NCBI RefSeq assembly: GCF_004135405.1 | Contig: NZ_CP035491.1 | Coordinates: 2,976,001-3,040,000 of the forward strand | Direction: 5' to 3' | Source of the DNA: Agromyces protaetiae | GTDB taxonomy: Bacteria; Actinomycetota; Actinomycetes; Actinomycetales; Microbacteriaceae | DNA length: 64,000 nucleotides | In this document: positions 2,574-61,933 of the stretch, piece after piece | Position numbering within the stretch: the first letter of the stretch is position 1 | How the letters are laid out: each line of letters opens with the position of its first letter | Notes under the pieces: generated by a model | What the model was told of the DNA's origin: nothing | The model's input: the letters and a program-made list of their open reading frames with translations, nothing else | Database searches by the model: none | Program-made: the position numbers and the translations under genes

Positions 2574-3716
2574 ATGGCACGAAGGGCATCACGCACCACT
2601 CCGAATCACTTGGCAGAGCCGCAGCGCGGCGCAGGTTTCACGATCGTCGAACTACTCATCGTCATCGTGGTTATCGCCATCCTTGCGACAATCACGGTCG
2701 TCTCTTACAACGGTGTCGTGAATCAGGCGAATGAGACTGCAGTGAAGAGCGATCTCCAAACGTTGACGAGCATCCTTGAGCTGGACAGCATCACTTCGGG
2801 CAGTTATCCAGCCACCGCCAATGCCGCAAACGGAGGCCGAGGGCTCGCCCTGAACGGCGGGCGCACTGTCGCCTACACATCGACGGGCGATACGTATTGC
2901 GTCGCCGTGACGGGCGGGTCGATCACCTTCTCATACGACTCAACTACCCGGCGCACGGTTAGTGGCGCCTGTGACGTTGGTGGCGGAGGTGGCGGAGGTG
3001 ATGGCACTATTGCCGACGGCAGCGTCATTCAAACCATCACGGCAGCAAATTGCCTGACGACCCGTACGCGGGCCGTTGACGCCCGGGACAATCACACCTA
3101 CTGGGTGCAGAAGCTAGCTGATGGCAAGTGTTGGATGCTCACTAATCTTGGCTACGCCGGGGGCGGCACGAATACCTATGCAGACGTAAAGTCCTTGGCG
3201 AACGGCACAGGGGGCTCCACAACCTACACAGCCGCTCGGTACTACGTTGTTCCAGGTACGACAAACTTCACGACGGAGCCGACCGCACCATCTATCTCAA
3301 CCGACGGCACAGGCCAGTACGGCTACTTCTATAATTGGTGTGCCGCCATGGGTGCCCAAACCAGCACGAGTGCTTGTGCAAATGCGACAACTCCGACGCC
3401 AAGTACAACCATCTCGATATGTCCCGCTGGCTGGCGATTACCTAGAGTCAGCAGTGGCGATTTCAGCGCTCTGAATACCGCCATTAATGGTGGCTCAGCG
3501 ACGACAGATGCCGGGCTGCGTACAGGATGGCTCACGCAGCGGACAGGCTGGTGGGACAGTGGGTTTAAGTATCTGGGTAGCGACGGCAACTACTGGTCGT
3601 CGACTCAGAGCTCAGCTACCAATGCCTACCAGCTGAACTTCGGGAGTTCTTACGTCTATCCGGCTGATGATGACTATAAACTCTACGGGTTAGCTGTGCG
3701 GTGCGTTGCCGTATAG
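2574..3716 (+). CDS. Type IV pilin-like protein with FISUMP-type domain
   Basis: A 380-residue protein. Residues 1-21 are a short basic prepilin leader ending in Gly21. Phe22 begins the mature N-terminus, FTIVELLIVIVV, with the conserved Glu at position 5 (Glu26) followed by a hydrophobic helix to about residue 45. After a short globular region there is a Gly-rich linker (about 136-143). Residues 150-380 carry motifs of the FISUMP family (TIGR02145): TYWVQKLADGKCWMLTNL-like block, YGYFYNWCAA, ICPAGWRLP, NYWSSTQ and a terminal VRCV. The domain has many Cys residues, as expected outside the cell. The gene stands alone: no prepilin peptidase, assembly ATPase or platform protein is in the window. 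Base composition is visibly poorer in GC than its neighbours, suggesting separate transfer. Probably a minor pilin or surface adhesin. Confidence 0.85.
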   Translation: MARRASRTTPNHLAEPQRGAGFTIVELLIVIVVIAILATITVVSYNGVVNQANETAVKSDLQTLTSILELDSITSGSYPATANAANGGRGLALNGGRTVAYTSTGDTYCVAVTGGSITFSYDSTTRRTVSGACDVGGGGGGGDGTIADGSVIQTITAANCLTTRTRAVDARDNHTYWVQKLADGKCWMLTNLGYAGGGTNTYADVKSLANGTGGSTTYTAARYYVVPGTTNFTTEPTAPSISTDGTGQYGYFYNWCAAMGAQTSTSACANATTPTPSTTISICPAGWRLPRVSSGDFSALNTAINGGSATTDAGLRTGWLTQRTGWWDSGFKYLGSDGNYWSSTQSSATNAYQLNFGSSYVYPADDDYKLYGLAVRCVAV

Positions 3717-33722: not shown

Positions 33723-34748
33723 TCACGCGTAGAGCTGCTCGGGAACCTGCAGCGCGTGTATGGGCCGCCCCGACTCCCAGATCACCGCGCAGGCTGCCCG
33801 CAGGAGGTCGAGCTCGTCGTCGCCCTCGGCGGCGATCACGACGCGGTCGCCGTCGAGTCGCACCTTCGCACGACCGACGCGGACGGTGTCACGCGTCCGT
33901 TCGGCGACCGGGTAGGCGGCGTGGAGGTCCCTCAGGTCACCGAGGATGAAGTCAGGGCGCATGGATGCATCGGCCGCGAGCAACTGCTTGGCGCGGTCGA
34001 TTCCGGTGAGCACCATCGCCGACGCGAAGCCCGCGCGGTTGGCGCCGAGGATGTCGGTGTCGAGCCGGTCGCCGATCATGAGCGGATTCGAAGCGCCGAA
34101 CCGGCGTTTCGCCTCGTCGAAGATCGGCGTTTCGGGCTTGCCGGCGACGACCGGGAACCTGCCCACCGCAGTGTGCACGGCCGAGACGAGCGTGCCGTTG
34201 CCGGGGGCGATGCCGCGCGCGACCGGAATCGTCCAGTCCATGTTCGTGGCGATCCAGGGAAGGCCGTTCTCGTCGGCGAAGCCGCCGGCGTTGAGCGCGA
34301 AGGCGGCTTCGGCCAGTTGCAGCCAGCCGACCTCGGGCGCGAAGCCCTGCACGACGGCTGCGGGCGCGTCGTCGGCCGACCTCGTGACGCGGTACCCGCG
34401 TCGCTCGAGCTCGGTGACGATGCCTTCCCCGCCGACGACGAGCACGAGCGCGCCCGGTTCGACGCGTTCGGCGAGGAGGTGCATCGCCGCCTGCGGCGAG
34501 GTCACGACGTCGGATGCCTCGACTTCGAGTCCGAGGTCGGTGAGGTGCCGCGCGACCGTCGCGTCGCTCCGCGAGGCGTTGTTCGTGACGTATCCGACCG
34601 CGTGCCCGGTCTTCGCCGCGTTGAGACTCTCGACGGCGTAGGGGATCGCGTGGGCCCCTTTGTAGACGACGCCGTCGAGGTCGGCGAGCACGGCGTCGAC
34701 GCCCTCGAGGGGCGTCGCGGACTCAATCCTCGTGCGGAACAGCGCCAT
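33723..34748 (-). CDS. HAD-IIA family phosphatase
   Basis: A 341-residue protein from the ATG at 34748 (GAGGACG upstream). The HAD motifs are VLADLDGVVYKG (nucleophile Asp), YVTNNASRS, GKPETPIFDEA and MIGDRLDTDILGANRAG. This is the NagD/PGP class that removes phosphate from small sugar phosphates or nitrophenyl phosphate in vitro. In this sequence the frame is joined to the RGG-rich gene upstream, but that fusion is explained by a missing base at 34884-34888. The true upstream stop would then be at 34723, overlapping this gene by 26 bases. Confidence 0.9.
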   Translation of the reverse strand: MALFRTRIESATPLEGVDAVLADLDGVVYKGAHAIPYAVESLNAAKTGHAVGYVTNNASRSDATVARHLTDLGLEVEASDVVTSPQAAMHLLAERVEPGALVLVVGGEGIVTELERRGYRVTRSADDAPAAVVQGFAPEVGWLQLAEAAFALNAGGFADENGLPWIATNMDWTIPVARGIAPGNGTLVSAVHTAVGRFPVVAGKPETPIFDEAKRRFGASNPLMIGDRLDTDILGANRAGFASAMVLTGIDRAKQLLAADASMRPDFILGDLRDLHAAYPVAERTRDTVRVGRAKVRLDGDRVVIAAEGDDELDLLRAACAVIWESGRPIHALQVPEQLYA

Positions 34749-36386
34749 CGGCGTCGTCCTCGAGTTCGTCGAGCAGGGCTGCGACTTCGGGCTCGATCGC
34801 GTCGGCGGGGTCGCCCTCCTCGGATGCTTCGGATGCCTCGGATGCCTCCGACGACTCGCGCGCGTCGACGACGACCGGTGCATCCCCCACTCGTCGTCGA
34901 TCTCGAAGACCTCGAACACTTCTTCGTCGGCGGGGCCCGCGAGCGCCTCTTCGGCTCGCTCCGCGAGCGCACGCCAGCGCTCGGCGTCTGCCGTGCGACC
35001 GAGCTCGTCGAGCACCTCGGCGTACGCCGAGAAGAGCGACGGGCTGTAACTGAACGCGCGCTCGGAGTCGAGCTGCGGGATCTCGAGCTCGGCGAGCGCG
35101 AGTTCGGGCTGACCCAGATCGAGTCGGGCACCCGACATCGCGATCGCGAGGCTCGCCTGCACGGCGGCCGGCAGTTCGGTACGGTCGATGGATCGTCCGA
35201 GCTCGAGGGCTCGGTCGGGGCGACCGACGCCGCGCTCGCTGTCGACCATGAGTGCGATCTGGTCGTTCTTCCCCGAGATGCGTCGGTACGTGCGGAGCTC
35301 GCGGAGGGCGAGTGCGAAGTCGCCCGTCTCGTATGCCGTGATCGCGAGCGTCTCCCGGACGACCGCGACCCGCCCGGCCCGTCGCCCGGCAGCGAGAGCG
35401 TGACGGTGCGCGAGCTCGGGGTCGCTCTCGAGGAAGAGCGCAGCAGCCGCAAGGTGTCGTGCGACGTCCTCCGCGTTGTCCTTACTGAGGGTCTTCAACT
35501 CGATCCGCGCCTCTTTCGCGAGGTCGCGGGCTTGAATGTCCTCAGGAAGGAAGGGGTCGTTGTGACGCGGACGTTCGAACGAGTGCCGGTCGTCATGCTC
35601 ACGAGCACCGGATGATCCGCGGTCGCCGCCGTACGACGGACGCCCCTGGCGGCCGGTGCGCGAGTCGTACCGGCCCGCGCCGTCGGAGCGCCGCTCGCCG
35701 TCGTACCGCTTCCCGCCCTCCGGGCGCGAGCCCGAACCGTACCGGGGCCGGTCTTCGCCGTACCGGGGACGGTCGCCCGACGGCCGGTCGCCGCGCTGAC
35801 CGCCGTCCGAACGACGCTGGCCGTCGTACCGCTTCCCGCCCTCCGGGCGCGAACCGCCCTCGTACCGACGCTGACCACCATCGGGCCGACGCTCTCCGCC
35901 GTCTCTACGCGGACCGTCGGAACGACGCTGGCCGCCCTGGTACCCGCGCTCACCGCCGTCCGAACGACGCTGGCCGTCGTACCGCTTCCCGCCCTCCGGG
36001 CGATTGCCGCTCCAACGGTCGGAACCTCCCTGCCGATCGCCCGAGGGCAGACCGCGGTCATCGCGGCGGGGCCGATCGGTCCGATCGCTCCGGTAGCCGC
36101 GGCCACCGAAGCGGTCGCCGCCGTTGCCTCGATCACTCCGAGCGCCGTCGCTCGGACGGTAGCCGCGCTCACCGGCCGGCCGGCCGGCCGGGTCGGAGCT
36201 GCGACCGCGAGCGCCGTATCCGCCGCCTTCTCGCTGAGGCCGACCGCCTCCCGCGCCACGATCACGGGGTGCACCTTCGCTCCCGGCACGCGACGAACTG
36301 CGGTTGGGACGGTCACCGGATCCCCGGGATTCGTCGCGCCGCTGAGGTCGCTCGTCGTCTCGGCCGCCGTTCGTGGAATCCGTCAC
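34723..36386 (-). CDS. RGG-repeat protein with helical repeat domain; frameshifted as sequenced
   Basis: The GTG at 36386 begins an N-terminal region of about 270 residues rich in Arg, Gly, Asp and Ser, with imperfect repeats of RPEGGKRYDGQRRSDGG. This is an RGG-type, RNA-binding-like disordered region. The second half (about 290-500) is a helical, TPR-like domain (HALAAGRRAGRVAVVRETLAITAYETGDFALALREL). Near 34888 the frame changes to a basic nonsense stretch. One extra G in the GGGGG run (CCCCC 34884-34888 on the given strand) restores an acidic tail (ALLDELEDDADG) ending at 34723, and the length then divides by three. So the 921-residue fusion with the HAD gene is an artefact or a recent mutation. 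The role is unknown; related proteins are annotated as hypothetical or primosomal-like. Confidence 0.75.
35690..36005. repeat. Imperfect tandem repeats in the RGG protein
   Basis: A block reading CGTCGTACCGCTTCCCGCCC followed by TCCGGGCG appears near 35698, 35822 and 35977, with related shorter units between. It encodes the repeated RPEGGKRYDG motif on the minus strand. Confidence 0.8.
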
Positions 36387-36456
36387 TGTTCGTCCTGTCG
36401 TCTTCGGGAATCGCTCGACTCCACGGTACTGCTCGCCGTTGTGAGCGGCCTTAAAT

Positions 36457-36492
36457 ACGAATGGGCCACCCGTGTTGGGGTGGCCCATTCGT
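36457..36492 (-). terminator. rRNA operon terminator
   Basis: A perfect 15-bp stem (36457-36471 with 36478-36492) with a six-base loop lies just beyond the 5S 3' end. On the minus strand it is followed by an AT-rich stretch. It separates the rRNA operon from the RGG gene. Confidence 0.85.
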
Positions 36493-36501
36493 CAATGAAT
36501 G

Positions 36502-36619
36502 TCCGGCGGTGTCCTACTCTCCCACAGGGTCGCCCCTGCAGTACCATCGGCGCTGCGAGTCTTAGCTTCCGGGTTCGGAATGTGTCCGGGCGTTTCCCTC
36601 GCGCTATGGCCGCCGAAAC
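36502..36619 (-). rRNA. rrf: 5S ribosomal RNA
   Basis: The minus strand begins GTTTCGGCGGCCATAGCG, contains CCGAACCCGGAAGCTAAG and GATGGTACTGCAGGGG, and ends with GAGAGTAGGACACCGCCGG. This is a full actinobacterial 5S rRNA of about 117 bases. It is the last gene of the operon. The 23S-5S spacer (36620-36811) holds no gene but carries one arm of the 23S processing stem. Confidence 0.97.
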
Positions 36620-36730
36620 TCTAGAACCAACACGTCCCACAGGGTGGGGGTTGGTGGTCTCGGTGCACACACCCCCCGGTTCTTGTGTTTTGGGGTGTGT
36701 GGTTTCTGCTGTGCAGTTGTATGTGTGTTT

Positions 36731-36769
36731 CCGTCTGAAGGGAACCACAGAGTGGACGCGAGAAATCTT
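36731..36769. other. Right arm of 23S rRNA processing stem
   Basis: This segment and 40043-40080 are nearly reverse-complementary over about 38 bases in the transcript, with a perfect 12-bp core (36751-36762 with 40050-40061). They bracket the 23S gene and should form the double-stranded stalk cut by RNase III. Confidence 0.8.
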
Positions 36770-36811
36770 GGCCACCTACACACGCCTTACGAAAACTGTG
36801 TGGGTGTAGTG

Positions 36812-41908
<5,097 letters not shown>

Positions 41909-42464
41909 AAAAAGATTCCCAACCAACCCAAAAAAGCCGGCCGAGGAGTTTGATCTCTGACAGAAAAAACAACTGACTCCAAAGAATCAAAATTGTCCAT
42001 CAATCAAAGGAATCCCACCCGGCAAAACCGGGTCGGGGTTCAAAAAATTGGCATTGAACATAGTGCACGCTGTTGAGTTCTCAAGAAACGGACGCCCCCG
42101 CCTCCACACCAGAAAAACCAGCGCTTCACAACAGGGAACCAAACATTTCCACCACCCGGCCATCCCAACCAAGGGACGCATCCGGACGCTTCAAACACCC
42201 GAGCAAAACACCACTCGACATGTTCGGAACCATCACCACTTGAGAACCAAGCAACGGAGAAGAGAAGAACCTCTCTCAACGCTCCCGGCCCTGTGGGGCA
42301 ACAGATGAATACTTTACGCACACCCCCACCACCCACGCAAACCCACCCCACACCCCGGGCGTGTCGCACCACCACCACACCACAAAACCCCAGAACAACC
42401 CGCAAAAACTTCCTTCAGCTCCCCGACGCCCCTCGGCTTCGCCCGTCCGCCCACTCCCGCACGA
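41909..42464 (-). promoter_or_regulatory. rRNA leader and promoter region
   Basis: No gene is seen in this 556-base region. On the minus strand it contains a TTGAGAACT segment near 42070-42085, like the antitermination and processing boxes of actinobacterial rRNA leaders, directly next to the 5' arm of the 16S stalk (42063-42075). A possible promoter is TTGCGT (42335-42340), an 18-base spacer and TAAAGT (42311-42316). Confidence 0.6.
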
Positions 42465-43859
42465 TCACGCCCAGTCGGCGGTGTCGCTTCCCCAGGCATG
42501 CGGCGGAGTCATCCATTCATCGTCGCTCCCGACATAGCCCGCTGCCGGACGCGGCACGACGACATCGCCGGCGGATCCGACGAGATGCTGCGCCTCGGCG
42601 ACGCGATCGTCATCGCCGAGCTCGCCGGCGGGCGAACGATCGGGCGTTCGCGGGCCCCCAAGGAGTTCGGCCGCGGTGCGCCGAAGCGACATGCGGACGC
42701 CGCGAGCGTCTGTCGCGCCCCGTCCGTCGAGCACCGTCGTCACCGCGGCGGCGAGCAGGTACCCGGTCGCGTGGTCGAGCGCCTGCACGGGCAGCGCGCC
42801 CGGACGCTCGCCGTCGGGCGACTCGATCCAGGCGATGCCGCTCTCGGCCTGGACGAGACTGTCGAATCCGGCACGTTCCGCCTCGCCTGGGCCGAACCCC
42901 CACGCGCTCAACTGCGCGATGACGAGGGACGGATGTCTCGCAGCGAGCGTGCGCGGATCGAGTCCGAGCCGCTCGAGCGACGCCGGCCGATATCCGAGCA
43001 CGAGCACGTCCGCCGCCGCGAGCAGGTCGTCGAAGCGGCGGCGATCCGACCGTGACCGCAGGTCGAGAAGCGCGGAGCGCTTGCCTGCGCCGCTATCAAG
43101 GTGCTGCCATCCGATCTCGGCGGGTTCGGGCGGGTCGATCCGAAGCACCTCGGCGCCGAAGAGCCCCAGCGTTCGGGTTGCGACGGGCCCCGCGATCACG
43201 CGGGTGAGATCGAGCACGCGGATGCCGTCGAGCGGGCGCCCCACCGGGCGGGACGCCCCGAGCGGCCGGCGATCGGATGTCTCGGAGTCGACGAGTTCGA
43301 TGAGCGGCGCAGCCGCGCGAGCGGCGGTGTCTGCGGGATCTTCTCGGCTCACCACCACGCAGAGTCCGCCGGCCGCGGTGACGTCGGCCGAGACATCCGC
43401 CGCAGTTCGCGACTCGAGCGCCGACGCGAGTGCTGCACCTTCGGCGTCGGCAGAGAGGCCGAGCACCCGACGGAGCGCGGCAGCATGATGCGGATAGTTC
43501 GCGTGGGTGCGGACCCAGCCGTCGGAGGTCTGCCAGAAGCCCGACAGGGGCGCCCAGGCAGCGGGGCGCACGCCGTCGATCGCGAAGACGCGTTCGCTCC
43601 CGAACGCCGTTGCGATGCGAGCACCGCTCAGCCGAAGAGCCGGGACGCGCTCGCCGCCGGCCGCGATCGCCGCCGCAAAGCTCGCCGCCGCGACCGAGTC
43701 GGCAGCGAGCCCGGCGACGTCGAGTCGCGCGGGCAGCGGCGGCTCGGGCAGCGCCCCGACGAGCGCGAGTTCGCTCTCGTCACGGCCGAGCTCTCGCCAC
43801 GCGCGCGCCAGGACACGTCGTGGGTCGAAAGCCGCGGCCGTGGCATCCGTGCCGTCCAT
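42465..43859 (-). CDS. CaiB/BaiF-type (family III) CoA transferase
   Basis: A 464-residue protein from the ATG at 43859. The second half has the family signature: DGIRVLDLTRVIAGPVATRTLGLFGAEVLRIDPP, then SGAGKRSALLDLRSRSDRRRF, DLLAAADVLVLGYRPASLERLGLD and LVIAQLSAWGFGPG. The first half is a related but degenerate domain (LSGFWQTSDGWVRTHANYPHH). Family III enzymes move CoA between carboxylic acids. The substrate here is unknown. It is transcribed toward the rRNA leader and lies downstream of tyrS, separated by a terminator. Confidence 0.85.
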   Translation of the reverse strand: MDGTDATAAAFDPRRVLARAWRELGRDESELALVGALPEPPLPARLDVAGLAADSVAAASFAAAIAAGGERVPALRLSGARIATAFGSERVFAIDGVRPAAWAPLSGFWQTSDGWVRTHANYPHHAAALRRVLGLSADAEGAALASALESRTAADVSADVTAAGGLCVVVSREDPADTAARAAAPLIELVDSETSDRRPLGASRPVGRPLDGIRVLDLTRVIAGPVATRTLGLFGAEVLRIDPPEPAEIGWQHLDSGAGKRSALLDLRSRSDRRRFDDLLAAADVLVLGYRPASLERLGLDPRTLAARHPSLVIAQLSAWGFGPGEAERAGFDSLVQAESGIAWIESPDGERPGALPVQALDHATGYLLAAAVTTVLDGRGATDARGVRMSLRRTAAELLGGPRTPDRSPAGELGDDDRVAEAQHLVGSAGDVVVPRPAAGYVGSDDEWMTPPHAWGSDTADWA

Positions 43860-43908
43860 GCGGTCAGGCTAACCGTCACGCGGGCTGCGCGCCGCAGCCA
43901 CCCGCGAA

Positions 43909-43934
43909 CCCGTGGCCTCTCGCGAGGCCACGGG
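43909..43934 (-). terminator. tyrS terminator
   Basis: A perfect 11-bp stem CCCGTGGCCTC/GAGGCCACGGG with a TCGC tetraloop lies just after the tyrS stop codon. There is no U-run, as is usual here. Confidence 0.7.
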
Positions 43935-43942
43935 CCGGGAAC

Positions 43943-45244
43943 TCAGGAGACGAAGACGCCCGCGAGGGTCTTCTTGCCGCGGCGGAGCACGGCGAGGGCG
44001 CCCGACCCGGCGAAGTCGGCGAGCGTCGCCGACTCGTCGTCGACGCGACGGTTGTCGATCGAGACGCCGCCCTGCTTGATCGCGCGACGGCCCTCGCTGA
44101 GGCTCGCGACGAGACCGGTGTCGACAAGGAGCTGCGCGACGGGCGCGTCGGCCGCGGCCGTCGTGTTGGGGAGCTCTTCGAACGCCGACGCGAGCGTCGC
44201 GCGATCGAGCGACGCGAGGTCGCCCTGCCCGAAGAGGGCCTGCGAGGCCGCGATGACCGACGCCGTGGCATCCGCCCCATGGACGAGGGTCGTGACCTCT
44301 GACGCGAGCACGCGCTGGGCCTCGCGCTTGAACGGCTCCGCCTCGACGAGTGCGGCGAGCTCTTCGATGCGCGCGCGGCTGAGGAACGTGAAGACCTTGA
44401 GCCGGTCGATCACGTCGGCGTCGTCGGTGTTGAGCCAGAACTGGTAGAAGCGGTACGGGCTGCACATCTCGGGGTCGAGCCAGATCGCGTTGCCCTCGCT
44501 CTTGCCGAACTTCGTGCCGTCGGAGTTCGTGATGAGCGGCGTGCCGATCGCGTGCGCCGAGACGCCCTCGACGCGATGGATGAGGTCGGTGCCGCTCGTG
44601 AGGTTGCCCCACTGGTCGCTGCCGCCCGTCTGCAGGACGCAGCCGTACAGTCGGTAGAGCTCGAGGAAGTCGAAGCCCTGGAGGATCTGGTAGCTGAACT
44701 CGGTGTACGAGATGCCCGCGTCGGAGTTCAGGCGCGAGGCGACCGCGTCCTTCTTCAGCATCGTGCCGACGCGGTAGTGCTTGCCGATCTCGCGCAGGAA
44801 GTCGATCGCGCTGAGTCCGGCCGTCCAGTCGAGATTGTTGACGAGGCGCACGGCGTTCTCGCCCTCGGCCGACAGGAAGCGGGACACCTGGGCCTGCAGG
44901 TACCCGACCCACTCGGCAACGGTCTCTTTCGTGTTGAGCGTGCGCTCGGCCGTCGGGCGGGGGTCGCCGATGAGTCCGGTCGATCCGCCGACGAGGCCGA
45001 GCGGCTTGTGGCCCGCGAGCTGGAGCCGGCGCAGCACGAGGAGCTGCACGAGGTTGCCGAGGTGCAGGCTCGGCGCGGTCGGGTCGAACCCGCAGTAGTA
45101 CGTGATCGGCTCGCCCGCGAGGAGCTCTTTGAGCGCAGTCTGGTCGGTCGAGACGTGGACGAGGCCGCGCCAGACGAGCTCCTCCCAGACGTCTTCGAAG
45201 GAGGCGTCGTTCTGCTGGGTCGCGAGGATCACGGGGTCTGACAC
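43943..45244 (-). CDS. tyrS: Tyrosyl-tRNA synthetase
   Basis: A 433-residue class I synthetase. The HIGH-like motif lies in CGFDPTAPSLHLGNLV, GGSTGLIGDP follows, the tyrosine site includes YTEFSYQILQ and GSDQWGN, and KMSKS appears as KFGKS near residue 243. The C-terminal S4 domain is LVDTGLVASLSEGRRAIKQGGVSIDN. It charges tRNA-Tyr. The GTG start has no good ribosome binding site but lies eight bases after a GATACT box, so the transcript may be leaderless. Confidence 0.97.
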   Translation of the reverse strand: MSDPVILATQQNDASFEDVWEELVWRGLVHVSTDQTALKELLAGEPITYYCGFDPTAPSLHLGNLVQLLVLRRLQLAGHKPLGLVGGSTGLIGDPRPTAERTLNTKETVAEWVGYLQAQVSRFLSAEGENAVRLVNNLDWTAGLSAIDFLREIGKHYRVGTMLKKDAVASRLNSDAGISYTEFSYQILQGFDFLELYRLYGCVLQTGGSDQWGNLTSGTDLIHRVEGVSAHAIGTPLITNSDGTKFGKSEGNAIWLDPEMCSPYRFYQFWLNTDDADVIDRLKVFTFLSRARIEELAALVEAEPFKREAQRVLASEVTTLVHGADATASVIAASQALFGQGDLASLDRATLASAFEELPNTTAAADAPVAQLLVDTGLVASLSEGRRAIKQGGVSIDNRRVDDESATLADFAGSGALAVLRRGKKTLAGVFVS

Positions 45245-45252
45245 CCCGCAAG

Positions 45253-45258
45253 AGTATC
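45253..45258 (-). promoter_or_regulatory. -10 box of a probable leaderless tyrS promoter
   Basis: GATACT on the minus strand is eight bases upstream of the GTG at 45244, the same spacing seen for pyrG. A -35 box is not clear. Confidence 0.35.
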
Positions 45259-45282
45259 AGCGGAATGATTCACGACTCACCC

Positions 45283-45312
45283 TTAACTCATCGGTGATTA
45301 ATACTGTATGCT
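45283..45312 (+). promoter_or_regulatory. Probable promoter of the SatD-like gene
   Basis: TTAACT (45283-45288), an 18-base spacer and TATGCT (45307-45312) lie in an unusually AT-rich stretch 50 bases before the ATG at 45362. TGAT and ATCA edges with TTA/TAA inner parts (45294-45318) form a weak dyad that may be a regulator site. Confidence 0.4.
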
Positions 45313-45361
45313 TACATCAAGCGCAATGAAGTCGGCAGGGTGAAGCGCAGGAAGGGGCACG

Positions 45362-45970
45362 ATGATCGTCCTCACCGCGGATCAGGTCTCGAGTCGCACG
45401 AGCGCCGACCTCGCCGGCCTCGAACGCGACCGCATCCAACTCGAGCACGGCGACCGCCTGCTCCTGCCCGTCGCGCGCAACGCAGGCGACGAGATCCAGA
45501 TGCTCACGGCCGACGCGCGCACCGCCGTCGACCTCGTCCTCGAGCTCACGCGCGACGGCGAATGGAGCGTCGGCGTCGGCGTCGGCTCGGTACGAGAACC
45601 GTTGCCCGAAGACATCCGGGAGGCCAGCGGCGACGCGTTCTTCGCCGCCCGCGACGCCGTCGATCGCGCGAAGAAGAGCACACCGCGAGTCGCGATCGAA
45701 GCCGACTCCCCCGACACCGCCCACGTCGAAGCGCTCTTCCGCCTCGCGCTCATCCTGCGCGAACGCCGCTCCGAGCAGGGCTGGGAGGTCTACGACCGAC
45801 TCGTCGCGGGCGCCTCGCAATCCGAGATCGCCGATGCGCTCGGCGTGAGCGCCCCGGCGATCAGCGCGCGAGTCAAGTCGGCGAACATCCGCGCCGAGCT
45901 CGACGCGGTGCCCGCGCTCGCTAGGCTGCTCGCACAACTGGATGCCTCGACGGGAGCGCGACACGCATGA
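45362..45970 (+). CDS. SatD-like protein with C-terminal helix-turn-helix
   Basis: A 202-residue protein with GGAAGGGG ten bases before the ATG. The N-terminal half (VLTADQVSSR, LLLPVARNAGDEIQMLTADA, VGVGVGSVREPLP, FFAARDAVDRAKKSTPRVAI) follows the pattern of the SatD family. The C-terminal half ends in a helix-turn-helix (DRLVAGASQSEIADALGVSAPAISARVKSANI). It could sense a ligand and control its own operon. It overlaps the next gene by ATGA, and a SatD gene next to a DUF3307 gene is a recurrent pair in bacteria. The biochemical role is not established. Confidence 0.7.
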   Translation: MIVLTADQVSSRTSADLAGLERDRIQLEHGDRLLLPVARNAGDEIQMLTADARTAVDLVLELTRDGEWSVGVGVGSVREPLPEDIREASGDAFFAARDAVDRAKKSTPRVAIEADSPDTAHVEALFRLALILRERRSEQGWEVYDRLVAGASQSEIADALGVSAPAISARVKSANIRAELDAVPALARLLAQLDASTGARHA

Positions 45971-46581
45971 GCTACCTGCCCCCCTTCTTCTTCCTCGGCG
46001 CGATCGTCTGGGTGCTCTTCGTCCTCGCTCTCATCACCGCGGCCACGTTCTCGATCCTCGCCGCGGTGCGGCCGAAGAAGCCGTTCGTGTGGATCGCGGC
46101 GGGCTCGCTCGGCGCCGCCGTGCTCGCCGCCGCGGCGCTCGAAGGGCAGTCCGGGTTCGGAACCACACCGCTCGTCGTGCTGCTCGGCCTCACCGTCGCG
46201 GTGTTCGGCGGCAGCGCCGCAGCGGGCACGGCGCTCGACCTCGCCATGGGCAGGTCGGTCACGCCCGGGCTGCACGGCGGCATCATCGTCACCGACCGGC
46301 GCATCGACGCGGGCGTCGCGCCCGGTGTGAAGGGAGACGAGCGTCGACGGGAAGTGCTCCGCGGCGGACTCACGATCGGCGTGCTCGAACGGTTCGCGGC
46401 CGCCGCGACGATCATCGCCGGATTCCCCGAAGGGCTCGCGATCATCATCGCCGTCAAGGGCGTCGGCCGGTTCACCGAACTCGACGCGCCCGAAGCACGC
46501 GAGCGGTTCATCATCGGCACGTTCGCGAGCCTCATCTGGGCGTGCGCGGTCGGGCTCGCGGTGCGGCTCGCGATCGCCTGA
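45967..46581 (+). CDS. Membrane protein with DUF3307-like C-terminus
   Basis: A 204-residue protein overlapping the SatD-like gene by ATGA. Hydrophobic segments lie at about 7-33, 40-57, 66-88, 142-160 and 180-202. The segment GVLERFAAAATIIAGFPEGLAIIIAVKGVGRFTEL followed by ERFIIGTFASLIWA resembles the end of DUF3307 proteins, which pair with SatD. The full DUF3307 N-terminus is not obvious, so this may be a shorter relative. Probably works in the inner membrane with the SatD-like protein. Confidence 0.6.
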   Translation: MSYLPPFFFLGAIVWVLFVLALITAATFSILAAVRPKKPFVWIAAGSLGAAVLAAAALEGQSGFGTTPLVVLLGLTVAVFGGSAAAGTALDLAMGRSVTPGLHGGIIVTDRRIDAGVAPGVKGDERRREVLRGGLTIGVLERFAAAATIIAGFPEGLAIIIAVKGVGRFTELDAPEARERFIIGTFASLIWACAVGLAVRLAIA

Positions 46582-46626
46582 GCTCTCGTCGCCGCGCTCG
46601 CGCGCGTGATCGCGGATGCCTCGCGC

Positions 46627-49639
<3,013 letters not shown>

Positions 49640-49689
49640 GAGGCGATACTGCCTTTCACGGGTGCGGTTCGCAGTGGAAGTCGGTGACG

Positions 49690-50904
49690 TCAGGAGAGGG
49701 ACGCGACGGATGTCTCGGCGAGGACGGTCTCGAGCGCACGCCCGAACCGGTCGGCGAACTCGTCGAGCTCGGCATCGCCGATGATGAGGGGCGGCGCGAG
49801 GCGGATCGTCGAGTCGTTCGCGGCGTTGACGATGAGGCCGGCGTCGAGCGCCGCGTGCATGACCTGCACGGCGACGGGCTCGGCGAGCGCGACGCCGAGC
49901 AGCAGTCCGCGACCGCGGACGCCGGTGACGAGCGGCGAACCGATGGCCTCGATGCGCTCACGGAGCGCGACACCGTTGACGGCCGCGCGCTCGACGAGTC
50001 CGGCCCGCTCGATCTCGCCGAGCACCGCGTTCGCGACGGCCGTCGCGAGCGGGTTGCCGCCGAACGTCGAGCCGTGCTGGCCCTTCTGGTAGAGGTCGCT
50101 CGTCGCGCCGAAGGTCACGAGTCCGCCGATCGGGAATCCGCCGCCGATGCCCTTCGCGATCGTGATCGCGTCGGGCGTGATGCCCGCGTGCTGGAACGCG
50201 AACCATGCACCCGTGCGGCCGGCGCCCGTCTGGATCTCGTCGACGATGAGGAGCGCGCCGTGTCGGGTCGTCAACTCGCGGGCCTTCTCGAGGAACCCGT
50301 CGGGCAATTCGACGACGCCGGCTTCGCCCTGGATCGGTTCGACGAAGAGGGCGGCGACCGAGTCGTCGATGGATGCCTCGAGCGCCTCGAGCGTCGCGGG
50401 GATGTGCTCGATGCCGCCGATGAGGGGCTCGAACGGCTGCCGCATGTGCGGCTTGCCGGTGAGCGCGAGCGCTCCGGTCGTGCGGCCGTGGAACGCGTCG
50501 ACGAGCGCGAGGACGCGAGTGCGCGCCCCGCCCGAGTTGTTCAGGCGTGCGAGCTTGAGCGCGGCCTCGTTCGCCTCGGCGCCCGAGTTGCCGAACCAGG
50601 CACGGCCGCCGTCGGTCGTCCCCGCGAGCCGCGTCACGCGCTCGGCGAGTTCGATCGCGGGCTCGGTCGCGAAGTAGTTGGAGACGTGCGCGATCTTCGA
50701 CGCCTGCGCCGTCACAGCCTCGACGAACACGGGGTGCGCGTGGCCGAGCGCGTTGACGGCGATGCCCGCGAGGAAGTCGAGGTACTCGTTGCCCTCGTCG
50801 TCCCACACCCGCGCGCCGTCGCCGCGTTCGAGCTTGCGCAGCGGCATCCCGATCGAACGCATGATGCGCTCGTCGAACCGTGACTGCCAAGTGCCGCCGC
50901 TCAT
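49690..50904 (-). CDS. argD: Acetylornithine aminotransferase
   Basis: A 404-residue class III PLP-dependent aminotransferase. Features are [21 protein letters not shown]-type start (split here), [30 protein letters not shown] and the PLP lysine in [14 protein letters not shown] near residue 249. It overlaps the argB stop by four bases. It makes N-acetylornithine in arginine synthesis. Confidence 0.95.
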
Positions 50905-51808
50905 GCGTCGTCCTCCGTTCCTGCGGGCACCACTTCGGTGCCCGATCCCTGCTTCGTGAACACCTCGAGCAGGATCGAGTGCGGCTCACGGCCGTCGATG
51001 ATGGCCGCCTTCGGCACCCCGCCGTCGACCGCCTCGAGGCACGCGGTCATCTTGGGGATCATGCCCGACTCCAGGCTCGGCAGGAGCGCTTCGAGTTCGG
51101 GCACTTCGATGACCGAGACGAGCGAGTCGCGGTTCGGCCAGTCGCGGTAGAGGCCTGCGACATCCGTCAGGATGACGAGTTTCGCGGCGCCGAGTGCGAT
51201 CGCGAGCGCTGCCGCCGCGGAGTCGGCGTTGACGTTGAGCGACTGCCCCGGGCGGTCGCCGTCGGGCGCGATCGAGGAGACGACGGGGATGCGCCCGGCG
51301 TCGAGGAGCGCCTGCACGGCCGCCGGGTCGACCCTGACGACGTCGCCGACGAGACCCAGGTCGACCTCTTCGCCGTCGACGATCGCCCCCGGCGCCGGCC
51401 CGTGAAAAGCCCGGCGTCTTCACCCGACACGCCGCTCGCGAGCGGTCCGTGCCGGTTGATGAGGCTCACGAGCTCACGGTTCACCTGGCCCGTGAGCACC
51501 ATCCTGACGACGTCCATCGCTTCGGGCGTCGTGACCCGGTAGCCGCCGCGGAACTCGCTCGCGATGCCCAGCCGGTCGAGCATGGAGGAGATCTGCGGGC
51601 CGCCGCCGTGGACGACGACGGGCTTGATGCCCGCGTAGCGGAGGTACACCATGTCTTCGGCGAACGCCTGTTGGAGTTCGGGGCTCACCATGGCGTTGCC
51701 GCCGAACTTCACGACGATGGTCTCGCCGTGGAAGCGTTTCAACCACGGCAGGGCCTCGATGAGCGTGCGCGCCTTCTCGGCTGCCTCGAGTGCTTCGGTC
51801 TCGGTCAT
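50901..51808 (-). pseudogene. argB: Acetylglutamate kinase, frameshifted as sequenced
   Basis: The N-terminal part from the ATG at 51808 has [23 protein letters not shown] and [13 protein letters not shown]. At CCCCC 51386-51390 (GGGGG on the minus strand) the frame breaks. The continuation ([55 protein letters not shown]) is intact in the next frame to 50901. One added G restores an uninterrupted 302-residue acetylglutamate kinase, and the total then divides by three. Given the otherwise complete arginine cluster, an assembly error is more likely than real loss. Confidence 0.9.
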
Positions 51809-51815
51809 CGTCGGC

Positions 51816-52973
51816 TCAGCTCGAGTAGGCGCTGTTCTCGTGCACGTAGTCGTGCGTGAGATCGTTCGTGCGAATGGCGGCGGATGCCTCGCCCGCGTGC
51901 AGTTCGATGAGCACGTGTGTGGCACGCGGCGTGAGGTCGACCTCGTCGCGCGGCCGGTCGGGGCGACCCGCGTGGCAGACCTGCACGCCGTTCATCGACA
52001 CGTCGACGAGGTAGGGATCGAACGGTGCCTGCGTCGTACCGATCGCGGCGAGCACCCGGCCCCAGTTGGGGTCGTTGCCGAAGATCGCGGCCTTGAAGAG
52101 GTTGTTACGGGCGACCGAGCGGCCGACCTCGACGGCGTCGTCTTCGGTCACGGCGCCCACGACCTCGATCGTGATGTCGTGGCTCGCGCCCTCGGCGTCG
52201 GCCTGCAGTTGCGAGGCGAGCGAATCGCACGCGGCCGTCACCGCCGCCGTGAGCTCTTCGAGCGTGGGCGTGACGCCCGAGGCGCCGCTCGCGAGGAGCG
52301 TCACCTGGTCGTTCGTCGACATGCAGCCGTCGGAGTCGAGCCGGTCGAACGTCACGCGCGTCGCGGCGCGGAGCGCCGTGTCGAGGTCGGATGCCTCTGC
52401 CGCCGCGTCGGTCGTCAGCACGACGAGCATCGTGGCGAGGCCGGGAGCGAGCATGCCCGCGCCCTTCGCCATGCCGCCCACCGTCCAGCCGCCGCCGTCG
52501 ACCACGACGGTTTTGGGCTTCGAGTCGGTCGTCATGATGGCCCGGGCCGCATCGGCGCCCGCTTGCTCGTCGGAGCCGAGCCGGTTCGCCGCCGACAGCA
52601 CGCCCTCTTCGAGGACCTCGCCGTCGAGCTGGTCGCCGATCAACCCCGTCGAACACACGAGCACGTCGCCCGCCGACACGCCGAGCGCCGACGCCGCCGC
52701 CTCGGCCGTGCGGTGCGTCACCTGGAACCCCTCGGGGCCGGTGAAGCAGTTCGCCCCGCCCGAGTTGAGCACGATCGCCGAGACGACGCCGTCGACGACG
52801 ACCTGCTGCGACCAGATGATCGGATTGGCCTTCGCCCGGTTCGACGTGAAGACGGCGGCGCCCGCCTGCGACGGTCCGCGGTTCACGACGACCGCGAGGT
52901 CGAGCGCGCCGGTGCGCTTGATGCCCGCGGCGATGCCCGCCGCTTCGAAGCCTTGCGCGGCGGTGACGGTCAC
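51816..52973 (-). CDS. argJ: Glutamate N-acetyltransferase / amino-acid acetyltransferase
   Basis: A 385-residue protein from the GTG at 52973, overlapping the argC stop (GTGA). The self-cleavage region is [19 protein letters not shown], with the cleavage before the Thr that becomes the nucleophile. [16 protein letters not shown] and [13 protein letters not shown] are also family motifs. It recycles acetyl groups from acetylornithine to glutamate. The frame extends far upstream inside argC, but that part is a shadow. Confidence 0.96.
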
Positions 52974-54013
52974 GGGGCGACTCCGTTCACGGGAAGGCCG
53001 GTCGACTCGGCGAGACCGAGCGCGATGTTGGCGGATTGGATGGCGGCACCCGCGGTGCCCTTCACGAGATTGTCGACGGCGGCGATCACGACGACACGAC
53101 CCGCAGCCTCGTCGACGGCGAGGCCGATGAGCGCGGTGTTCGCGCCCGTGACATCCGAAGTCTTCGGGAACTCGCCCTCGGGAAGCAACTGCACGAACCG
53201 CTCCCCCGCGTACGCGTCCTCCCACGCGGCGCGCACTTGCGCCGCCGTCGTGCCCGGCACGAGCTTCGCCGACGAGGTCGCGAGGATGCCCCGCGCCATC
53301 GGCACGAGCACGGGCGTGAACGAGATCGTCGGCTCCGATGCGCCCGCCCACCGCAGCGCCTGCTGGATCTCGGGGATGTGCCGGTGCGTGCCGCCGACGG
53401 CATACGGGTTCGCCGAGCCGAGGATCTCGGACGCGAGGAGGTGGGGCTTCAAGCTCTTGCCGGCCCCCGACGGGCCGACCGCGAGCACGGACACGAGGTC
53501 GTGCTCGTCGATGACGCCTGCCCGGATGCCCGGGGCGAGCGACAGCGCGACGGTCGAGGCGTTGCAGCCCGGTGCCGCGATGCGCCGCGACTTCGCGAGC
53601 CGGTCGCGCTGCGTGCCCTGGAGCCGCGGCAGTTCGGGCACCCCGTAGGCCCACGACCCGTGATGCTCGCCGCCGTAGAACGCCGCCCAGTCGACAGGCG
53701 ACTCGAGTCGGTGGTCGGCACCGCAGTCGATCACGAGCGTGTCCTCGGAAAGCTCGGCGGCCACGGCCCCTGACGCGCCGTGCGGCAGCGCCAGGAAGAC
53801 GACGTCGTGCCCCGCGAGCGTCTCGGCCGAGGTCTCTTTGAGCGTCAGATGCGTGTAGCTGCGCAGGTGCGGCTGCGCTGCGACGAGCGGCTGGCCGGCG
53901 CTCGAGTGCGCCGTGACGGTGCGGACTTCGAAATCGGGGTGATCGGCGAGGAGCCGAAGGATTTCTCCACCGGCATAGCCGGATGCGCCGGAAACGGCGA
54001 CGGAGTAGGTCAT
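52970..54013 (-). CDS. argC: N-acetyl-gamma-glutamyl-phosphate reductase
   Basis: A 347-residue protein. The NADP fold begins [22 protein letters not shown], and the catalytic Cys lies in [15 protein letters not shown] near residue 148. [11 protein letters not shown] and [12 protein letters not shown] follow. It is the first gene of argC-J-B-D-F-H. The gap upstream (54014-54238) holds no gene or obvious ARG box that I can point to. Confidence 0.96.
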
Positions 54014-54238
54014 GGATCCACCTTAGGACTGTGCGAACGAGGGTCTCGACTCCGGCGACGCCCGCACAGGGTCGGCTCAGGCCGACGCGGGGGTCGCCGA
54101 GATTCGGCGCTCGCCACGACGTCGGACGCGCAGCACCGCCGCGCGAGCTGCGCGGGATGGGGCGACCAGGACGGTGGACATGTCAGGCACCATATCCGCG
54201 GGAGGCTGCCGAGTGCAAACCGAGCGGATGCCTCAGGG

Positions 54239-54663
54239 TCACACGGCGCCGCGCGTGTGCACCCACGCGCGGTCGACGAGGGACGCGAGGACGTCGAGGT
54301 CGATCGTCGAGAGGCGGCCGACCCAGAGGCATCCGACGCCGATCTTGACCTTGCCGAGCTGGGCGACCAGCTCGTCGACGCCGTGCTCGCGGAGGTGTGG
54401 CTCATGCAGGCCGTAGAGCGAGATCGACGCCTTGCGCGGCGAGAACGCGACGACCGGCCACTCCCCTCGCGGCCTGCTGCCGTGCGCGTGTGCACGAGCC
54501 CGTAGCCGATGATCGACGGCCCCCACATGACGGCGTCGGTGCCGGTCACGCGGTCGAACAGGTCTCGGAGCTCCCATCCGTCTTCGCGTCGGCCTGCGGG
54601 CTCGACGCGGTCGAGGAACTCGGCGACGGATGACCCGGTCGGCTGCGTCTTCGCTTCGGCCAT
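54239..54663 (-). pseudogene. DUF1801 family protein, frameshifted as sequenced
   Basis: The ATG at 54663 begins SSVAEFLDRVEPAGRREDGW, then VMWGPSIIGYGLVHTRTAAGREG. The frame then breaks at a GGGG run (CCCC 54463-54466 on the given strand). The next frame continues WPVVAFSPRKASISLYGLHE, LGKVKIGVGCLWVGRL and ends WVHTRGAV at 54239. With one G added the protein has 141 residues and matches DUF1801 (YdhG-like) over its length. The function is unknown. The same one-G deficit is seen in argB and the RGG gene. Confidence 0.8.
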
Positions 54664-61052: not shown

Positions 61053-61778
61053 TCAGTGCGTGATGAGCTTGGAGAGGAAGTCTCTCGCGCGAGCGCTCTG
61101 CGGGTTCGTGAAGAACTCGTCGGGCGTCGCCTCTTCCACGATCTGGCCGTCGGCCATGAAGACGACGCGATCGGCCGCCTTGCGGGCGAAACCCATCTCG
61201 TGCGTGACGACGATCATCGTCATGCCGTCTTGCGCGAGGCGCACCATGACGTCGAGCACCTCGTTGATCATCTCGGGATCGAGGGCGCTCGTCGGCTCGT
61301 CGAAGAGCATGACCTTGGGATTCATCGCGAGCGCACGCGCGATCGCGACGCGCTGCTGCTGGCCCCCCGACAACTGGGCGGGCAGCTTCGACGCCTGCTG
61401 GCCGACGCCGACGCGATCGAGCAGCACCTTGGCGGCGGCCTCGGCGTCGGCCTTCGACTGCTTGCGGACCCTGATCGGTCCGAGCGTGACGTTGTCGAGC
61501 ACCGTGAGATGCGCGAAAAGGTTGAACGACTGGAATACCATGCCGACATCTGCGCGGAGCGCTGCGAGCGCCTTGCCCTCTTGAGGCAGTTCGTCGCCGT
61601 CGATGCGGATCGACCCCGACGTGAACGTCTCGAGGCGGTTGATCGTGCGGCACAGGGTCGATTTGCCCGACCCCGACGGCCCGATGACGACGACGACCTC
61701 GCCCCGGCTGACGGTGAGCGACACGTCCTTCAACGCGTGGAACTGCCCGTAGTGCTTGTCGACGTGGTCGACCACCAC
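61053..61778 (-). CDS. gluA: Amino-acid ABC transporter ATP-binding protein (GluA type)
   Basis: A 241-residue ATPase from the GTG at 61778 (GGGGGAG six bases upstream). Walker A is [11 protein letters not shown]-loop [13 protein letters not shown], signature [15 protein letters not shown], Walker [15 protein letters not shown] and switch VVTHEMGF. An alternative start at the ATG at 61840 would fit only if one G were added to the CCCCC run 61787-61791. The protein would then gain a plausible 21-residue N-terminus. It powers the gluBCD importer. Confidence 0.9.
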
Positions 61779-61933
61779 GAGCGGCTCCCCCGGCGGACCG
61801 AGATGTTCGAGGTCGGCGGACTCGCTGGCGTGGGCTCCATATCCCCCAAACTAGGGATGCCGACGGCGCACACGCCAGGGCCTCGCCCACGCGGTTACCG
61901 ATTCGTGACTCGTTCGAAACGAACGAGTGAAGC

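Follow-up and report, generated by a model that had tools for sequence, protein, structure and literature searches.

One-base deletions at G/C runs, probably systematic undercalls, split argB and essential genes in the Agromyces protaetiae genome assembly

Introduction

Residual homopolymer indels in long-read bacterial assemblies shift reading frames and generate false pseudogenes, as described in passages of two reports (PMC8011154, PMC12007338), and an excerpt of a third states that a high-GC genome needed more depth in MinION assemblies (PMC6325685). The frame breaks analyzed here resemble the long-read homopolymer errors treated in those passages (Homopolish, PMC8011154; Kastor, PMC12007338; MinION, PMC6325685) in that single-base deletions give rise to frameshifts and an excess of pseudogenes within an otherwise complete assembly. 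They differ in that the accepted sites all lie at G/C runs. A second comparison is provided by the phase variation and indel tolerance of actinobacteria without MutSL, for which a passage of PMC11551767 reports that indels of 1-2 bases are not repaired by the NucS system of M. smegmatis. Frameshifts tied to runs in an actinobacterium are common to that passage and to the present genome; in contrast to the tolerance it describes, essential genes are split here in their only copies, every accepted change is a deletion, and three same-genus relatives carry no break supported by multiple references.

The present analysis concerns a 64,000-nucleotide stretch (the window) of the Agromyces protaetiae genome (G000), in which a sequence-only reading had proposed that argB, an RGG-repeat gene and a DUF1801 gene each lack exactly one G in a G-run, and that this pattern reflects systematic undercalling in the assembly rather than three real mutations. 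The sampled parts of the genome are 68-71% G+C.

Results

Split genes in the window. The argB gene (acetylglutamate kinase; 50901-51808, minus strand) is distributed over two frames, as defined by alignment to relatives and by the family profile, and the switch falls at a G-run at 51386-51390 that reads CCCCC on the plus strand. At this run a base is present in 19 of 19 aligned relatives, while G000 has a gap of one, so that the claim of an argB one base short at this very run holds up; the alignment set comprised 19 loci, drawn from the 58 relatives that matched at the DNA level. Within the aligned segment, the reading frame stays open for at most 296-303 codons in the relatives versus 213 here, and the two halves match positions 1-107 and 113-231 of the NCBIfam argB model in different frames. 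Across the whole genome no argB match scored above the cut-off of 151.3 bits, the search returning the two halves and weak matches of 22.4 and 20.6 bits. The broken gene is part of an arginine cluster on the minus strand (47244-54013; argC, argJ, argB, argD, argF and argH, assigned with NCBIfam), the five intact members of which score above cut-off as equivalogs or subfamilies. The cluster had been described as otherwise complete; argC, argJ, argD, argF and argH are present in it, and argG sits intact elsewhere in the genome (G000:C1:1115445-1116665).

The RGG-repeat gene extends on the minus strand from a likely GTG start, chosen by eye, to a stop in the shifted frame (34723-36387), and its end is overlapped by a downstream gene for a HAD-type hydrolase (33723-34748, minus strand), identified by the HAD families found in a 921-aa open reading frame. 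This frame (33723-36488) arises because the unshifted RGG frame continues through the HAD gene. In five of five syntenic relatives the RGG gene instead ends 40 nt ahead of the HAD motif and in a different frame. The 921-aa RGG-HAD 'fusion' is, judged from the called sequence and its syntenic counterparts, an artefact of the called sequence; an annotation of this assembly could list the frame as a fusion protein. That the RGG gene is shifted is thus supported by its separation from the HAD gene in all five relatives, but the exact site assigned to the break, the minus-strand G-run at 34884-34888 (CCCCC on the plus strand), is not fixed to the base, because the acidic tail of the protein aligns poorly. 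This run is a plausible site for the frame change.

The third proposed gene (54239-54663, minus strand) also occupies two frames when aligned to the relative G023, with the switch at a G-run at 54463-54466 (CCCC on the plus strand), where G000 has a one-base gap. G023 is the sole syntenic relative of five with a blastn match to this gene, no such match being found in the remaining four, so the missing base is seen against one relative. The family name is tentative, because the G023 orthologue scores 23.6 bits against the Pfam DUF1801 cut-off of 27.2 bits; we refer to the gene as DUF1801-like.

A fourth break in the window, absent from the list of the sequence-only reading, lies in a gene for a GlnQ-like ABC transporter ATPase (61053-61840, minus strand; family taken from the G023 orthologue). 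The frame switches 49 bases past the likely ATG, at a G-run at 61787-61791 (CCCCC on the plus strand), where a base is present in five of five aligned relatives. The gene may have been overlooked because the list of open reading frames contained a long frame beginning at an internal ATPase start.

The window also carries an rRNA operon (5S, 23S and 16S; 36501-41909, minus strand). Neither 16S nor 23S contains a unique deletion relative to five relatives, a comparison of little power given the only five G/C runs of at least 5 bases there; 23S has three unique inserted columns at two variable places.

Frame breaks across the genome and in relatives. A systematic cause predicts similar faults beyond the window, so that breaks found there favor undercalling. 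We scanned the window and four 100-kb blocks, 464 kb of the genome in all, together with the syntenic stretches of three one-contig relatives of the same genus (G023, G034 and G031) as controls. Open reading frames filtered by codon-position G+C were subjected to a custom frameshift-tolerant protein-to-DNA alignment that required at least 20 aligned residues on each side of a break, and the covered lengths were 237 kb here and 314, 269 and 290 kb in G023, G034 and G031, respectively. These filtered frames replaced an unfiltered six-frame scan, which was dominated by shadow frames (54 clusters each in G000, G023 and G034).

Comparison with related genomes had been proposed as a check on the three breaks, and it returned one-base breaks in this genome: five were backed by at least two of the three relatives, versus 0, 0 and 0 in G023, G034 and G031. 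Each of the five lacks one base at a G/C run of 4-5, and from covered length alone the chance of all five falling in this genome is 0.0004. These breaks beyond the window, metG and prs included, support the earlier proposal of systematic undercalling over real mutation. Looser criteria separate the genomes less well, with 15 sites here versus 5, 7 and 6 when single-reference sites are included (the control rows being taken as listed by the scan) and 20 versus 9, 12 and 4 with shorter flanks. A tblastn scan gave 15 sites here versus 2, 0 and 1; 11 of these 15 have a net change of -1, and the four with another net change (A 14489, A 97295, B 48069 and D 76020) were omitted. A scan for DNA gaps did not separate the genomes (26 sites versus 30, 23 and 24, or 4 versus 3, 2 and 1 with at least two references, the control sites being raw counts). 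The ratio of one-base deletions to insertions in that scan was 19:4 here versus 8:17, 7:13 and 9:13 in the relatives, whose skew partly mirrors this genome, itself among their references.

Essential genes among the split genes. By their G023 orthologues, the five genes with multi-reference breaks encode an MFS transporter, a MocR-like regulator, L-serine ammonia-lyase, methionyl-tRNA synthetase (metG) and ribose-phosphate diphosphokinase (prs). Methionyl-tRNA synthetase and PRPP synthase are indispensable, and true loss of either would be lethal. The breaks lie near G000:C1 1845840 in metG and near 1865344 in prs. For metG no match in the whole genome exceeded the curated cut-off, which 14 of 14 control genomes passed; the gene is represented by two halves that lie in different frames, and the other eight matches are partial and weak (21-71 bits). 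With a broader Pfam model, nine of nine matches pass its low cut-off, and only the two halves jointly span the model. Likewise, the two halves of prs are the sole matches above cut-off, two of ten, in a whole-genome search. Given that metG and prs exist solely as split copies, either the called sequence is wrong at these positions or expression corrects the frame.

These observations bear on whether the deletions could be genuine, having arisen by slippage at G/C runs and been left unmended by NucS, so that argB and the other genes would be true pseudogenes or phase-variable. The passage on M. smegmatis, in which indels of 1-2 bases escape NucS (PMC11551767), lends this explanation a mechanism, and any one break in a non-essential gene, such as that in the DUF1801-like gene, could be genuine. 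Real slippage, however, is difficult to reconcile with metG and prs being known solely as split copies, as genes needed for life are not spared, with the one-sidedness of the changes (13 of 13 accepted sites are deletions), or with zero multi-reference breaks in three relatives of the same genus. We regard it as very unlikely.

Run length and context of the deletions. The accepted sites form a curated set of 13, chosen by the analyst, that comprises 11 of the 15 single- or multi-reference sites of the alignment scan together with D 21072, added though below the identity filter, and the RGG site, added though outside the filter on open reading frames. Fourteen of those 15 scan sites are deletions; the remaining one is an insertion located ahead of a start codon. 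Four of the 15 were dropped. A 97307 has low identity and is covered by another reference in which no shift is needed; B 62227 and C 11729 appear, by eye, to lie upstream of a start codon; and B 23042 is a single-reference site near a gene end and not at a run of at least 4. This last site, a possible break around position 3042 of block B (L052), is seen against G031 alone.

All 13 curated sites lack a single base at a G/C run, whose called length is 4 at seven sites and 5 at six, which agrees with the original observation that the breaks are all deletions in G-runs. Of one-base deletions placed at random over the covered positions, 4.5% would have their junction at a G/C run of at least 4 bases, compared with five of five multi-reference sites. 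If the lost base is taken to belong to the run, 7 inferred 5-base runs are undercalled versus 244 intact (~3%; the 244 include five event runs called as 5) and 5 inferred 6-base runs versus 15 (~25%), with the RGG site left out (Fisher p 0.0007). The undercall rate would thus rise with run length, a dependence that real slippage would share. Six-base runs are slightly scarcer here, at 8.0 per 100 kb versus 9.4, 12.1 and 12.3 in the relatives, with no clear depletion.

The identity of the lost base is less secure than its absence. In the 1-3 relatives compared, G/C runs of at least 5 bases are absent from 11 of the 13 curated sites, and for this reason we infer, rather than observe, that a run base is missing; at single sites an adjacent base may be the one lost. 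The earlier statement that each gene lacks one G is accordingly borne out as to a base missing relative to the orthologues, while its identity as a G of the run is the probable part. The same 11 sites would also fit an assembly that had instead dropped a lone base beside G's, such as a C flanked by them, perhaps in a context such as a modified motif, with the loss itself creating the runs. The base following the run on the G strand offers this explanation some further support, being A at 8 of 13 sites compared with 19-33% of other runs of 4-6 bases, a post hoc excess (p 0.002 against 22%). If lone bases flanked by G's or C's were lost at a uniform rate, however, the merged runs would mostly be 2-3 long and would reach at least 4 in 18% of cases, so that the observed 13 of 13 has a probability of ~2e-10 for this curated set, context-specific loss aside. 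Loss of lone bases is therefore improbable, though it deserves more weight than real slippage. Separately, the frequent A after the G-run among the 13 curated sites may reflect an influence of sequence context on the caller.

Correction of the frame during expression. A correct assembly and a living cell could also be reconciled if the shifted genes yielded their proteins by programmed frameshifting, or by slippage of the transcript at G-runs. The affected families are, however, unrelated; their orthologues are open without a shift; and the site is not conserved, as the base is present in 19 of 19 relatives for argB and in five of five for the ATPase. In addition, the covered stretches hold approximately 240 five-base runs that cause no break. 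We therefore hold such programmed events to be scarcely credible. It is just as far-fetched that the short runs are real and that the strain survives a pervasive loss of one base in its G-runs by efficient slippage in transcription or translation, even in metG and prs.

Discussion

The breaks are, in our assessment, very probably base-calling or consensus errors that are systematic in this assembly, a reading drawn from comparison of the called sequence with its relatives. We infer that the bases were lost in sequencing. Under this explanation, the assembly would call G/C runs of approximately 5-6 bases one base short, and more often so as the run lengthens. Such undercalls would shift the frame in a few per cent of genes; a very rough extrapolation by length, with 90% coding assumed, would put the number of affected genes genome-wide at ~170. 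In the living cell, the argB, RGG-repeat, DUF1801-like, ABC-ATPase, metG and prs genes would all be intact.

For users of this genome, the broken argB, metG and prs, and likely many more apparent 'pseudogenes', would be spurious, and the case indicates that a one-contig genome recorded as 100% complete and 0% contaminated can still hold errors of this kind. The split genes are almost certainly an artefact of the assembly rather than a real feature, and biologically ordinary. The apparent break in argB in particular is a warning that the strain should not be taken as unable to make arginine.
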